From the NCBI GenBank assembly GCA_026770585.1, contig MU646909.1:149592-170022 (forward strand): DNA of 20,431 bases, in the 5' to 3' direction. Below the pieces are notes generated by a model. It saw only the letters and a list, made by a program, of their open reading frames with translations, was not told the DNA's origin and searched no databases. This DNA comes from Baffinella frigidus (taxonomy: Eukaryota > Cryptophyceae > Cryptomonadales > Baffinellaceae). Positions within the stretch are counted from its first letter, which is position 1; every line of letters begins with the position of its first letter. A program made the translations under genes and the position numbers. Of the stretch, positions 98 through 14,700 are shown piece after piece.

Positions 98-2704
98 CTG
101 GTTTTGGGTTAGGGTTTGGGGTTTGGGGTTCAGGTCTTGGGGTTCGGGTTTGAAAGTTTGGGGTTGTACCCCATGCCCAGATCGCGGCACTGCTCCTCAT
201 CCTCGGCGATCTGCTCCTTGGGGCTCCAGTCCCAGTCCTGGTTTAGCGTTTGGGGTTTAGGGCTTAGGGTGTGGGGTGTGGAAGCTGTGGTTTAGGGTTT
301 AGGGTTTAGGATTTGGTTTTTGTTTGGGATTTTCATTCGGGTTTTTGTTTTAGGGTTCAGGGGTTAGGGTTTAGGTTTTAGGGTTCAGGGTTTTAGGGTT
401 TAGGGTTTGTTGTTCAGGGTTATAACCCAGCGCTCCGAGCCATCGTTCCAGTTCCAGCAGTCGATGTCGCCTGGGTTCGGGTTTGGGGTTTGGGGTTTGG
501 GGTTTGGGTTTTGGGTTTAGGGTTTAGGGTTTAGGGTTCAGGGTTTAGGGTTTAGGGTTTGAGAGTCTAGGGTTTAGGGTTTAGGGTGTAGGGTGTAGGG
601 TTTAGTGTTGAGTTCATTGTTGAGTGTTGAGTGTCGAGTGTTGAGTGTTGAGTGTTGAGTGTTGAGTGTTTAGGGTTTAGGGTTTAGGGTTTGGGGTTTG
701 GGGTTAAGGGTTCAGGGTTAACCGCACAGCTGGCACTCCCCAGCGGAGTTGGGCAGGGTGCCCGGCTTGCACGTGCAGTTGCCTGCCAGTGTTTGGTGTT
801 TGGTGTTTGGCTTTTGGTGTTTGGCTTTTGGTGTTTGGTGTTGGGGGTATGGGGTTTGGTGGTTGGGGTTTGATGTTTGGTGGTTGTTGTTTGGTGGTTG
901 GCGTTTGGCGTGTTGGGTTTGGCGTTTGTGGTTGATGGTTTAGGGTGTAGGCTTCAACGACGTTGGGTATCTCTGTTTCCGTGGCCAACAGATGGGAAGT
1001 AGAGCTTCAGCTTTCGGGGTTGTCCACCTTGCGCCTGGCTCCCAAGCGGCGCGATCTGGAACGCCGGACAGCCGCGGCACGTCTCCTCCTCCTCGGCGGC
1101 CACGGCCCCGGAGTAGGTGTTGAAGTCACACAGGATGCACGGGGTCGTCGTGTCGAGGTCCTTGAAGGTTCTGTGCGTTGGGGGTTTGGGGTTTGAGGTT
1201 TGGGGTCTGGGGTCTGGGGTCTGGGGTCTGGGGTCTGAGGATTGGGGATTGGGGTTTAGGGGTTTAGGGGGTTTGGGGGTTAGGGGTTGAGGGGTTTTGA
1301 GGTTTAGGGATTTGGCCCAGCCTCCCGCGTTCCTCGGGGTTGAGAGTTCAGGGTTCAGGGTTCAGGGTGTACGTGTTAGGGCTGAGGGTTGAGGGGCACG
1401 CACCCAGCCGGGCACGCGAAACAAAGGTTTGCCTTGGTAATGCTCAGGCCGTCCGTGAGGCTGGTCGAGGAGACTGCGGCGCCCCTCGAGTACGTTGCAA
1501 AGCGGTAGTACCTGCAGGTTTGGGGGTTGGGGTTTGGGGATTTGGGGTTTGGGGTTTGGGGTTTGGGGTTTGAGGTTTTGGAGTTCTGGGGGTTGGGGAT
1601 TTGGGGTTTGGGGTTTGGGGTTTAGGATGCAGTGTTTGGGTTTTAGGGTTCAGGGTGTGGTGACTAAGGTTTGGTGATTAGGGTTTGGGTTTATGTTTTA
1701 GGGTTTAGGGTTTGGGGTAGTACTCGTCGAGCAGCGCCAGCTCCGAGAGGAAGATGTCTGGGTTGGGGTTTAGGATTTAGGATTTAGGATTTAGGGTTTA
1801 GGGTTTGGGGTCTAGGGTTTAGGGTGTGAGGATTTAAGGTGTATGGTTTAGATTCAGGTTTAAGGTTTCAGGGTTTAGGGTTTAGGGTTTAGGGTTTAGG
1901 GTTTCGGGTTCAAACCAGGGGTGCGGACGAGCGACGTCACGAAGCCCGAGGTCAGGCGGACCTGGTTTGGGGTTTGAGGTTTAGGGTTTAGGGCTTCGGG
2001 TTTAGGGGTTAGGGTTTAGGGTTTAGGGTTTAGAGTTTGGGGTGTAAGGTGCAGGGGTTAGGGTGTAGGGTGTAGGGTTAAGTGCACCTTGCCGGGTGCG
2101 GCGGTCTTGCCCTTCAGCGCATCCTCCTGGTTTGGGGTTTGGGGTTTGGTTTTCCGGGTTCCGGGTTTCGGGTTCCGGGTTCTGGGTTCTGGGTTTCGGG
2201 TTCCGGGTTTTGGGTTCCGGGTTCCGGGTTCCGGGTTTCGGGTCTCAGTTTTTGGGTGTAGAGTGTACCTCCCCGCGCGTGGCGTCCCACGGGACAATGT
2301 GCGAGCCGCGCACCAAGACGTCCTGCCCCGACGTGTCGTTCCCGGCGTAGGTCACCTGCTCCGGGTGAACGGCTTAGGGTTTCGGGATTCGGGATTCGGG
2401 ATTCGGGAATCGGGATTCGGGCACCATCAGGTTCTGCTCCCCCCCCCGGCCGTGTCGTTCCCGTGGGTGACCTAATCCGAGGACATGTTCAATTCAAATG
2501 ATTTCAGTGAAAGTTGCTAATGAAAGTTACTACACGGAATGATCATACTAGTAACAATAAATCGTTCTCGCATAAATTTTCGTTGGTTTCAGGATTCGGT
2601 ATTCGGGATTCGGGATTCAAGATTGAGGTTTAGGGTTGTGACCTGCATCGTGTCGCCGCCTATGTTGTCAAAGTAGTCCGCGCGCAGCGTGTGCCATCCC
2701 TGGT

Positions 2705-2736
<32 letters not shown>

Positions 2737-11700: not shown

Positions 11701-14700
11701 GCACGCTGCAAGCCAACGTAGCACCGCAGCTCGCCGCACACGGCCCCGGCCTGCTCAGCCTGTCGCGGCGTGTGAAGCGACGCCAGATCGCCCCCCCCCA
11801 GCCGGCACCGCGCACGCACCTCATCCCACGTGCCCGCCTTGACCACGAACAGGGGCGAGGGCTCCGAGAGCCCGCGCGTCTTGAGACACACGCCTGGAAG
11901 ACTGGTCCAACCCGTGCCAGAATCGTGCCATCCCGTGCCCTTTGCGCCGACAAACACCACCTTGGTCCCGTCATCGCTCCAAGGATTCGACACGTTCCAC
12001 GGCGCGTAGTCGACGCGCGTCTCATCGGTCCACCCCCACTCATCCCCGGGCGTCTCGCGTTCCAGCCCGATGTAGCAGCGCGCGCCTCTGCATACCCCCC
12101 CCGCCTGCGCCGCCTGCTCGGGCGTGTGGAGTGACGCCAAATCCCCGCCGCCCTGGATGCACCGCGCGCGCACCTGGTTTGGGGTTTGGGGTTTGGGGTT
12201 CAGGGTTTCGGGTTTCGGGTTCAGGGTTCAGGGTTCAGGGTTCCGGGTTCCGGGTTTGGGGTGTCGAGTTGAGGGTTGAGGGTTGAGAGTTGAGGGTTGA
12301 GGGTTGAGGGTTCAGGGTGTGGAGTTCAGGGTTGAGGGTTGCAGGTTGAGGGTTGAGGGTTGAGGGTTGAGGGTGGAGGGTTGGTGCACCTGCCACCACG
12401 TCCCCGCCTCGACGGGGAACAGCTCCCCGGGCGCGAACGCAACTGCCTCCTCCTGGTGTGGGGTTGAGGTTTTAGGGTTTGGGGGTTTGGGCTTGGGGTT
12501 TGGGTTTGGGGTTTGGGGTTTGGGGTTTCGGTTTTCGAATTGAGGGTTGGGGGTTGAGGGTTGGGGTTGAGGGTTGGGGGTTGCGGGTTTGGGTGTTTGA
12601 ACCTCCTCCTCGAAAGTCGCGTTACGCGAGAGGTCGAGCTCCTCCTCCCGCAGGTCGAAATCGTGTTCTTTTTGATCAAAGTCCCAGTCCCTGGTCCGGG
12701 GTTTAGGGTTCAGGGTTTATGGTTTATGGTTGATGTTGTATTGTTTATTGTGTATGGTTGGTGGTGTATGGTTTATGGTGCATGGTTGAGCATTTAGGGT
12801 GTGGTGTGAAGGGGTTAGGGTGCAGCGTTCGCGAGCAGGGATCAGGGATCAGGGATCAGGGATCAGGGATCAGGGATCAGGGTGTAGGGGGCAGGGTTCC
12901 GGGTGGAGGGTGTCGGGAAGTACCAGCGCCACGTAATCATATCGAAGACCCACTTGCGCCATTTCTCCCCGTCACGCTGGCACAACCCCGCCCGGTTCTC
13001 AACGTAGAGATCAAAGCACGTACAGTTGGCCACATCCGTGCTCCCCTCCGGCGACGAGCGGAGCGGGAAGCATTCGATGCAGGTTTCCGGACCCGTAGCG
13101 GCCACGACGCCAGAGTACTTCCCGGTCCCGCACGCCTTGCACACGGTCGTCTCGTTGCCCCCCTTGTATGTCCCGGGTGGGCACGCAAAGCACAGAGGCT
13201 CCCTCTCGATCGAGATCTCCGCCAGCACGCTCGTCGCGCCCACAGTCAACCCCTTCTGAAGCGTCACAAACCCAAACAGGTCCACAACCTGCGCGAGCTC
13301 GCTGATGTGGACGGTCGTGCCCCTGACGAAGGACGCGGGCATCCCCGACACAAGGCGCACCTCCCTGCTGCTGTTCGTGGCGCTGGCGGAGTTGTTGATG
13401 TGCATCCCCTTCACAAACTCGTCCAAGTCCTCTGTATCGGCTCCGCGATACAGCACCTGCATGGTGTCCCCGCCGATAAAGTCGAAGTAGTCGGCCCGCA
13501 GAGAGTGGAACCCGGCCTCGAGCTCCACCTTGCCACTCCGCGTCTGGGCCCCGTGTCGCCCCGAGTTGTCCACCACCTTGGCCCCGTCCACCCACAGGTG
13601 CGACCCGTCGTCCGACCGCGTCGAAAACGTGTACTCGCCCCCCCTCTGGATCTCGAACACTCCCTCCCATACCCCCACCATGGACGATTGCTCGTACCCA
13701 GGGAAACGCTCCATCAACGCCGCCTCACTCCCGAAGTCGATGACGCCAAACACCCCCTCCGCGGTCACACCCAGCCCCTTACCGACAGCCACGGTGCCCC
13801 AGTACTCCTCGTCGTACTGGATGGCGTTGCCGTCCATCGTCGCGTCGTGAATGAACGACGCTCTGAAGCCCGCGTGCAAGCGGACCACCTCACCACCCGC
13901 GGACGCTGTGCAAGTATACGAGCAGTTCACGTCCACCGGCCAATGAAAGCCCTTGACCACAGCCGCTGTCCCGCTCGTGTCCGGCCCGTTGTACTCCACT
14001 ACCATCGTGGTGCCCTCTTGCACCTCAAACCAGTCCGCACGAACCTGGTTTCGGGTTTAGGGTTTAGGATTTGAGGTTCAGGGTTAAGGATTTCGGGGTT
14101 AGGGTTTAGGGGTCAGGATGTAGGGTTTAGGGTTTAGGGTTTAGGGTTTAGGGTTTAGGGTTTAGGGTTTAGGGTTTGGGGTTTAGGGTTGAGGAACCGT
14201 GTGGAAGCCCGCCGACAGGTGCAGAGTGCCATTCACAGTTCCCGGCGAAAACGGACCGCCGTTCCTCACCACCAGCACCCCATCGACCCACAGGCGCGAC
14301 CCGTCCAGCGAAGTAGTGAGGAACACGTACTCCCCAGCGCGCTCGATCTTGACGAGCCCGCTGACGTGCCCCACAACCTGTTGTTTTGGGTTCAGCGTTC
14401 AGCGTTCAGGGCTCAGGGATCAGGGTTTAGGGTTTAACGGTTAAGGCGTGGGCACAACCTTCCCGACGAAGCCAGCCCCCTCGGCAACGCCGTACCCAGA
14501 ACGACACGCACACTCGTCGATATCGCCGCTCCCGACACCCGACTGCGAGTTGGCCGGGCAGCGCAGGCAGCTCTCCTCCCCCGGAGACCCAACGCTCGAC
14601 GAGTACTTGCCCGCCTCACACGGCGTGCACACGCCAGGTCCGGTGTCAGCCTTGTATGTGCCGGCCACGCACGCTGTGCAAGGCCCGCCGTTCTGGCCCG

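Follow-up and report, generated by a model that had tools for sequence, protein, structure and literature searches.

How new spliceosomal introns originate has long been open, and few systems show fresh insertions together with target duplications. We analyzed a stretch of 20,431 nucleotides from the cryptophyte Baffinella frigidus, hereafter the window (contig MU646909.1, here C592, positions 149592-170022, within an assembly of 382 Mb in 1,364 contigs). Its minus strand is part of one very large gene whose 34 modelled introns consist mostly of degenerate, telomere-like heptamer arrays. The filler of these introns is recognizable, and empty sites occur in the same genome. In the reading that we consider best, with a probability of roughly 0.4, telomere-like DNA was captured at staggered breaks in exons and became introns.

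The closest described systems are cited here from portions of the published reports. Introner elements have been surveyed in Micromonas, Aureococcus, Symbiodinium, and Florenciella (Gozashti et al. 2022, PMC9860276). In that survey, target-site duplications were recorded for 49 of 130 scored families and terminal inverted repeats for 72 of 177, so the latter are not universal. Low-complexity families were filtered out, and heptamer introns were therefore probably removed from the survey. Like introners, the introns of the window are numerous and of one sequence kind, carry short target duplications, are present or absent between gene copies, and draw their splice sites partly or wholly from the duplicated target. 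Unlike introners, they have variable lengths and a telomere-like heptamer array, with no conserved body and no terminal inverted repeats found in the window; the name "introner" is not earned.

In Daphnia pulex, intron gain at staggered breaks leaves a direct repeat of 4-12 bp at either end of the intron (PMC4202315). Opposite-end repeats are likewise present in a subset of the introns described here, as are internal duplications of variable length. The Daphnia introns are polymorphic in presence, whereas the comparison here is between two gene copies of one assembly. Moreover, the filler here is telomere-like, whereas the relevant portion of the Daphnia report describes no single repeat kind as filler. 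In the horse, telomeric repeats were inserted where double-strand breaks had occurred, and at 3 of 66 loci the target was directly duplicated (PMC7215372). Like the interstitial telomeric sequences of horse and human, the arrays of the window are telomere-like and have empty counterparts, some with a target duplication. The same report, in the part cited, implies that no human interstitial telomeric sequence lies in a coding exon and takes no position on whether splicing is affected, whereas the arrays here are apparent introns with coding exons on either side.

The chlorarachniophyte Amorphochlora amoebiformis has simple-repeat introns that are lineage-specific, with several at AG/GN sites (the slash marks the splice boundary throughout), half containing (AT)n, and none with terminal inverted repeats (PMC12730881). 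Unlike the present introns, no target duplication is mentioned for them in the portion cited, and the telomere unit of that species is TAACCC. In Amoebophrya, the exon/intron borders of introners are spanned by direct repeats of 3-5 nt, and strain A120 has the telomere repeats TTTAGGG/TTTGGGG (PMC7789003). Those introners possess inverted repeats of 8-20 nt and mostly non-canonical splice sites, whereas 33 of the 34 donors modelled here are GT. Finally, Rogers and Bendich (2025, PMC11782384) reported a direct repeat within 40 bp of the borders in 213 of 213 introns, of every class, with an expectation based on equal base frequencies, and interpreted such repeats as signs of insertion. Unlike in that study, as far as the cited portion goes, the repeats described here lie in splice-site register and were tested by re-pairing. 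None of the open-licence papers listed in our literature searches reports introns made of telomere-like repeats.

Composition of the introns

Removal of the 34 modelled introns left 4,444 codons with only one stop, which sits in the last piece (window 1-97); this piece continues into the next array. Judged from the sequence, intron removal appears to restore one open frame, as it does for spliceosomal GT-AG introns. The single donor that is not GT is GC, and the base following the acceptor is G in 32 of the 34 introns.

The introns range in length from 72 to 621 bp. On the coding strand they are mostly degenerate arrays of the CCCTAAA type, with a lag-7 identity of 0.69; the commonest units are CCCTAAA (169), CCCCAAA (85), and CCCTGAA (69). 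No array of the opposite strand was found within the window. The two strands differ sharply in potential splice dinucleotides: per kb, the sense strand of the introns contains 12.7 GT and 16.1 AG, as compared to 138.1 GT and 87.5 AG for the antisense strand.

Direct repeats at the intron junctions

A preliminary description of the window reported eight direct repeats at the two ends of introns. All eight were present in the sequence and seven lay in splice-site register. The exception was the repeat AGGAGGAGG of intron 12453-12602, which is six bases out of register and falls within a coding GAG repeat. All introns named below are on the minus strand.

Three introns have perfect 8-bp duplications. 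In intron 4641-4964, CCAAGGTT (CCAAG/GTT) occurs at the donor (4962-4969) and at the acceptor (4638-4645). In intron 1512-1723, GTACTACC occupies 1716-1723 and 1504-1511, the GT coming from the target and the AG from the insert. In intron 14378-14458, AGGTTGTG (AG/GTTGTG) occupies 14453-14460 and 14372-14379. Intron 6541-6621, with AG/GTAGTG and AG/GTTGTG at its ends (4 bases exact, 7 of 8 matching), is a paralogue of the last and not an independent case. Duplications of 7 bp occur in introns 12174-12389 (CAGGTGC, split as CAG/GTGC; 12386-12392 and 12170-12176) and 2953-3080 (CCAAGGT, split as CCAAG/GT; 3079-3085 and 2951-2957). Intron 2356-2642 carries a near-duplication, GCAGGTCAC and GCAGGTGAC (GCAG/GTCAC and GCAG/GTGAC; 6 exact, 7 of 8). 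To these we added a 6-bp duplication, G/GTACT, in intron 4280-4575 (GGTACT at 4571-4576 and 4275-4280), and in-register matches of 5 bp in the introns at 14045, 3332, 17030, 17581, and 5551.

Expected values were obtained by re-pairing the donors of the 34 introns with their acceptors, which preserves the splice consensus. Exact shared junctions of at least 6 bases were found in 7 introns versus 1.84 expected (p = 0.00025), of at least 7 bases in 5 versus 0.75 (p = 0.0005), and of at least 8 bases in 3 of 34 versus 0.12 (p = 0.00025). At least 6 of 8 in-register positions matched in 19 of 34 introns versus 6.6 expected (sd 2.0; p = 0.0002), and in 18 of 33 versus 6.3 when intron 6541 was dropped. 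The preliminary description had argued that the AG/GT consensus alone is insufficient to account for the sharing; the excess over re-paired junctions bears this out.

The excess was maintained under stricter controls. With permutation restricted to introns of the same codon phase, at least 6 of 8 positions matched in 18 of 33 versus 8.03 expected (p = 0.0001), at least 7 of 8 in 6 versus 2.54 (p = 0.012), and at least 6 exact bases were shared in 7 versus 2.78 (p = 0.004). Omission of introns 14378, 12453, 2356, and 12691, whose ends had been set by hand or taken from the preliminary description, gave 15 of 29 versus 5.15 (p = 0.0001); two of these 29 (5039 and 3598), each with only 2 shared bases, had been assembled by hand out of shorter pieces. 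Sliding the register from -12 to +12 yielded 0-3 introns per register. The largest excesses were at +6 (3 versus 0.9 expected; for at least 7 positions, 2 versus 0.1) and at +7 and +12 (3 each versus 1.0). The +6 excess was dropped as a signal, both of its strong cases (12453 and 12691) lying in coding repeats. Using the flanks of the arrays alone and ignoring splice sites, at least 8 common bases were found in 5 of 34 cases versus 0.44 expected (p = 0.0003), two of the five being off register (AGGAGGAGG and GGGCGTGG). Repeats near the junctions in any register were weakly in excess (p = 0.03-0.045). The junction repeats are thus confirmed as real in this gene, and are statistically stronger than the preliminary description could show.

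Likelihoods calculated on a coarse grid were best for a duplication of 6 bp within a range of 5-8 bp, present in approximately 40% of introns. The log-likelihoods for 5, 6, 7, and 8 bp were 11.7, 12.5, 12.1, and 11.7, respectively, so the recurrent length of about 8 bp proposed earlier is not established as a fixed value. The proposal that the duplicated target supplies both AG and GT holds in many introns, but in those at 1512, 4280, 14045, and C291:110029 (see below) the duplicate supplies just GT or GGT, and the insert contributes the A, or the AG, of the acceptor. Neither array purity nor array length was correlated with duplication (rho of 0.12 and -0.08, respectively).

These data bear on whether the introns arose by introner-type transposition, in which a transposase acting on a non-autonomous element with a heptamer-satellite body would leave a constant 8-bp duplication. 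Such an origin would account for the three perfect duplications, each exactly 8 bp long, with none longer in register, for nearly all introns being of one sequence kind, and for the arrays over stretches of other loci running in one orientation. We nevertheless consider it rather unlikely. The introns showed no sign of terminal inverted repeats: the longest complementary word at their two ends averaged 4.35, versus 4.18 (sd 0.13) for re-paired ends, with a maximum of 6. Their ends are not conserved, with 15 of 34 terminating in ACCAG and the donors varying, and no shared body other than degenerate heptamers was found among the 34. Lengths vary from 72 to 621 bp, a length of 8 fits no better than 5-7, and longer local duplications of 19-72 bp also occur. 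What survives of the introner-like insertion proposed in the preliminary description is therefore target duplication in a subset of introns; the features of a classical introner do not.

Empty sites in paralogous modules and in a second gene copy

The gene is built of paralogous modules, and intron-free counterparts of some introns exist among the modules within the window. The paralogue of intron 2953-3080 at 13576 is empty and reads GGGGCCAAGGTGGTGG, with CCAAGGT present once. The more telling comparison is with a second copy of the gene, found on contig C291. It is likewise empty at this site, with CCAAGGT once and 93% identity. The empty counterpart is thus a second gene copy in the same genome, represented by one assembly, rather than an orthologue from another species.

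The two copies differ by region. For window 12174-14458, C291 shares all five introns and carries an additional one (99981-100072). For window 1512-6774, 12 of 17 introns are absent from C291, which has two of its own (109710 and 110029). Of the 12 absences, 10 were established by junction alignment, that of 4641 by a separate alignment, and that of 2127 by eye; two of the twelve listed junctions (14045 and 12174) were matches to another module and were excluded from the count. Among the five shared introns in this region, 2356 and 1962 were read by eye. The junctions of the missing introns align without interruption, identities being 74-93% over all listed junctions. At the site of intron 4641-4964, C291 has an open frame and a gapless alignment, although the target bases themselves differ.

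The cleanest case is an intron that C291 has and the window lacks, C291:110029-110184. The sequence GATTG/GTTCGACCCTAA...CCTGAACCAG/GTTCGAGC in C291 corresponds to GATTGGTTCGAGC in the window, at 88% identity. At this site the window reads GATTGGTTCGAGCTC, while C291 reads GATTGGTTCGA, a heptamer array, and then GGTTCGAGCTC. The intron is flanked by the 7-bp duplication GGTTCGA, whereas the window has GATTGGTTCGAGC once. Together, the likelihood analysis and the filled and empty sites of the two gene copies support, for some of the introns of this gene, an origin by insertion that duplicated a short stretch of the target.

Shared introns indicate how the duplications age. The duplication of intron 1512-1723 is the same in C291:111677-111858, and 7 of the 8 bases of intron 14378-14458 are retained in its counterpart near 98947-99031, as read by eye. 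The duplications of introns 12174 and 14045 are eroded in C291; the counterpart of the former, at 101238-101471, shares only CAGGT. The counterpart of intron 4280, at 110377-110546, starts with GTAAACCC and shares AG/GTA only. Because these three are eroded or reduced, the junction mark appears to decay. Two further introns fit such decay. Intron 6659-6774 starts with GTATGG, the empty C291 site reads GGGTATGG, and the downstream exon in the window starts with GTACGG; from the match of the intron start to the empty site, this appears to be a decayed duplication. Intron 5768-5981 starts with GTCCG, the empty paralogous site at 14256 reads GCG/GTCCG, and the downstream exon starts with GCCCC. 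The paralogous GTCCG and the intron's own downstream GCCCC both encode Gly-Pro, and C291, which lacks the intron, reads GGCCC. A decayed duplication is probable here as well.

The same comparison bears on a different history, in which the introns are ancestral and were lost through cDNA recombination from the long exons and from C291, the heptamers spread by microsatellite expansion, and the shared bases reflect consensus and chance. This history agrees with a strong clustering of introns: a 5,399-bp exon stands beside exons mostly of 34-90 bp, an arrangement never reached in 20,000 random draws. It also agrees with the matching positions of introns in paralogous modules (6541/14378, 5551/2700, and 238/12691), with the absence from C291 of 12 of the 17 introns in a single stretch of the window, and with junction sharing that is no stronger in copy-specific introns and is not seen elsewhere. 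On the other hand, it does not predict junction duplications beyond those of re-paired junctions. Moreover, some introns occur only in C291, and a clean 7-bp duplication flanks one of them; the start of intron 6659 also equals the empty C291 site. We regard this history as rather unlikely.

Window 1-6774 contains 22 introns, or approximately one per 73 bp of coding sequence, and adjoins the intron-free 5.4-kb exon (6775-12173, minus strand). cDNA-mediated intron loss is a possible explanation for an intron-poor exon beside so intron-dense a region. This exon, which encodes matches to C-type lectin, NHL, ephrin-receptor-like, and PA14 domains, is a source of empty paralogous sites.

Copies of exons within introns

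Copies of 19-72 bp of an adjacent exon occur within four of the 34 introns (5039, 3598, 6027, and 2356). Three of the four are composite introns on the minus strand that are absent from C291. Intron 6027-6464 holds two extra partial copies of the tail of the upstream exon (6192-6230 and 6345-6379). In intron 5039-5480, the downstream exon's first 53 bp or so recur in two extra copies, at 5164-5214 and about 5084-5134. Intron 3598-4218 contains, at 3741-3812, a 72-bp copy of its downstream exon that has diverged. Part of the downstream exon of intron 2356-2642 is found within that intron as a decayed copy, with the aligned part at 2445-2463. A further copy of this kind, of approximately 46 bp, was seen by eye in C291. 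No copy of a distant exon was scored in the introns, except for matches to the array-containing end piece (window 1-97). The open stretch at 3738-3812 within intron 3598-4218 could be an alternative exon.

Such copies raise the question of whether the introns were made by tandem duplication of a stretch holding AGGT, or were copied between modules by gene conversion. In addition to the exon copies in four introns, kinase genes at C2:1189100-1190100 and C82:814376-815900 have heptamer-rich introns that repeat the exon tail in short copies close inside the donor, as seen by eye. With respect to transfer, C291:99981-100072 and window 2356-2642 lie at the same position in different modules, and both start with GTCAC. 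Specifically, the former starts with GTCACGACCCTAA, like the same-position introns of module 2 (GTCACAACC in the window and GTCACTAC in C291). Transfer of this intron between modules through gene conversion is possible. As a general source of the introns, these processes are quite improbable. Most intron bodies are heptamer and not exon, so tandem duplication alone does not make most introns. Overall, local duplications of variable length are a better fit to repair than to a transposase.

Origin of the heptamer introns

In the reading that we favor, pieces of degenerate TTTAGGG/TTTGGGG/TTCAGGG arrays, supplied by a telomere or by telomerase, would have been inserted into exons at staggered breaks. 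Fill-in of the staggered ends would leave the insert flanked by direct repeats of about 5-8 bp. Where the target held GT or AGGT, its two copies would provide splice sites. The orientation that survives would be the one that places the C-strand (CCCTAAA) in the transcript, since that strand is almost without GT and AG while the other is full of them. Near-absence of these dinucleotides in the insert would leave the duplicated target, or the GT of the target with an AG at the end of the insert, as almost the sole splice sites. The insert would then be removed as an ordinary GT-AG intron, usually leaving the mRNA unchanged. Later, the 5' copy would decay and the arrays would change through local slippage. 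A splice-silent strand may thus explain the single array orientation of the window, through selection on orientation, and would fit the orientation seen elsewhere. Together with a duplicated AGGT, it would explain how an inserted repeat becomes an intron at once.

At other loci, AGGGTTTAGGGTTTAGGG matched 71,538 times in 382 Mb, whereas the reversed control matched 35 times; telomere-like arrays occur outside this gene as well. Arrays at other loci lie mostly in one orientation per locus. The sample from other loci amounted to 64.5 kb: 51.5 kb usable from 20 segments of 10 kb selected by position, which were mostly N and from which pieces of 800 bases or fewer were dropped, and 13 kb around pattern matches. 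In this sample, the mean flank match at 47 arrays was somewhat raised (4.91 versus 4.38, sd 0.18). The kinase loci have heptamer introns in unrelated genes, with few clear junctions.

Several observations weigh against capture of telomere-like DNA at staggered breaks. At the 47 other arrays, a flank match of at least 7 bp occurred in 3 versus 2.06 expected, and all three consist of low-complexity or heptamer sequence. Among 32 weakly modelled candidate introns predicted elsewhere by a gene finder, none shared at least 5 bases (0.37 expected). The genome-wide excess of junction sharing raised in the preliminary description was thus not supported in this small, poor sample (47 arrays, 32 introns). 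Within the gene, a hand count gave at least 5 shared bases in 4 of 12 introns missing from C291 versus 6 of 10 shared introns. The C291-missing introns 5039, 3598, 2700, 6027, and 1758 have no duplication of useful length; C291 may have lost them, or they may have been inserted without a duplication. The match of intron starts to the nearest empty paralogue is weak and only suggestive: for 24 introns, p was 0.048 for the first six bases and 0.074 and 0.18 for two other ranges, and 0.22 for intron ends. The mark expected of telomerase, with nucleotides at the break in register with the repeat, was looked for by eye in approximately 10 introns and was not general. The arrays could be old introns that were later filled with microsatellite, and the strong clustering makes some cDNA-mediated losses plausible. 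Among published cases, horse loci show deletions (20 of 66) more often than duplications (PMC7215372). Finally, border repeats alone are weak evidence in the absence of a re-pairing control because, in the portion of the study cited, they were found at all 213 introns (PMC11782384).

A broader proposition is that new spliceosomal introns have been made in large numbers from telomeric-repeat DNA captured at staggered exon breaks, with a splice-silent C-rich strand and with target duplication alone defining the intron. We consider this doubtful. If true, such introns would have been missed by any introner survey in which low-complexity families are discarded.

Other features of the gene and of other sequence collections

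Five exons submitted to Pfam gave matches to C-type lectin, NHL, ephrin-receptor-like, and PA14 domains. Lengths of 34-119 bp account for 24 of the 33 complete exons; the two longest measure 2,571 and 5,399 bp. Protein searches showed no close relative among the matches listed (in two of them, the best 120 of 144 and of 273); one Baffinella protein, at 38% identity, was listed in the latter. A read-through of heptamer arrays had 13 matches, in which three proteins of Baffinella frigidus were the only ones from named eukaryotes. This is a weak indication of kinship, since low-complexity runs of this type are found in bacteria too.

Pattern scans of viral contigs returned 18 loci with at most short arrays and otherwise none. 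A pattern scan of prokaryote contigs returned 13 loci with bacterial heptamer-like runs or single matches. Heptamer-like runs (CCCTGAA and CCCCGAA) that are unrelated to introns were present in several contigs of bacterial metagenome-assembled genomes (L019-L031). Within the window, 20299-20384 holds an 11-bp tandem repeat, GGGAGGGTTTC, in 7.8 copies with a 96% match, located within a heptamer intron.

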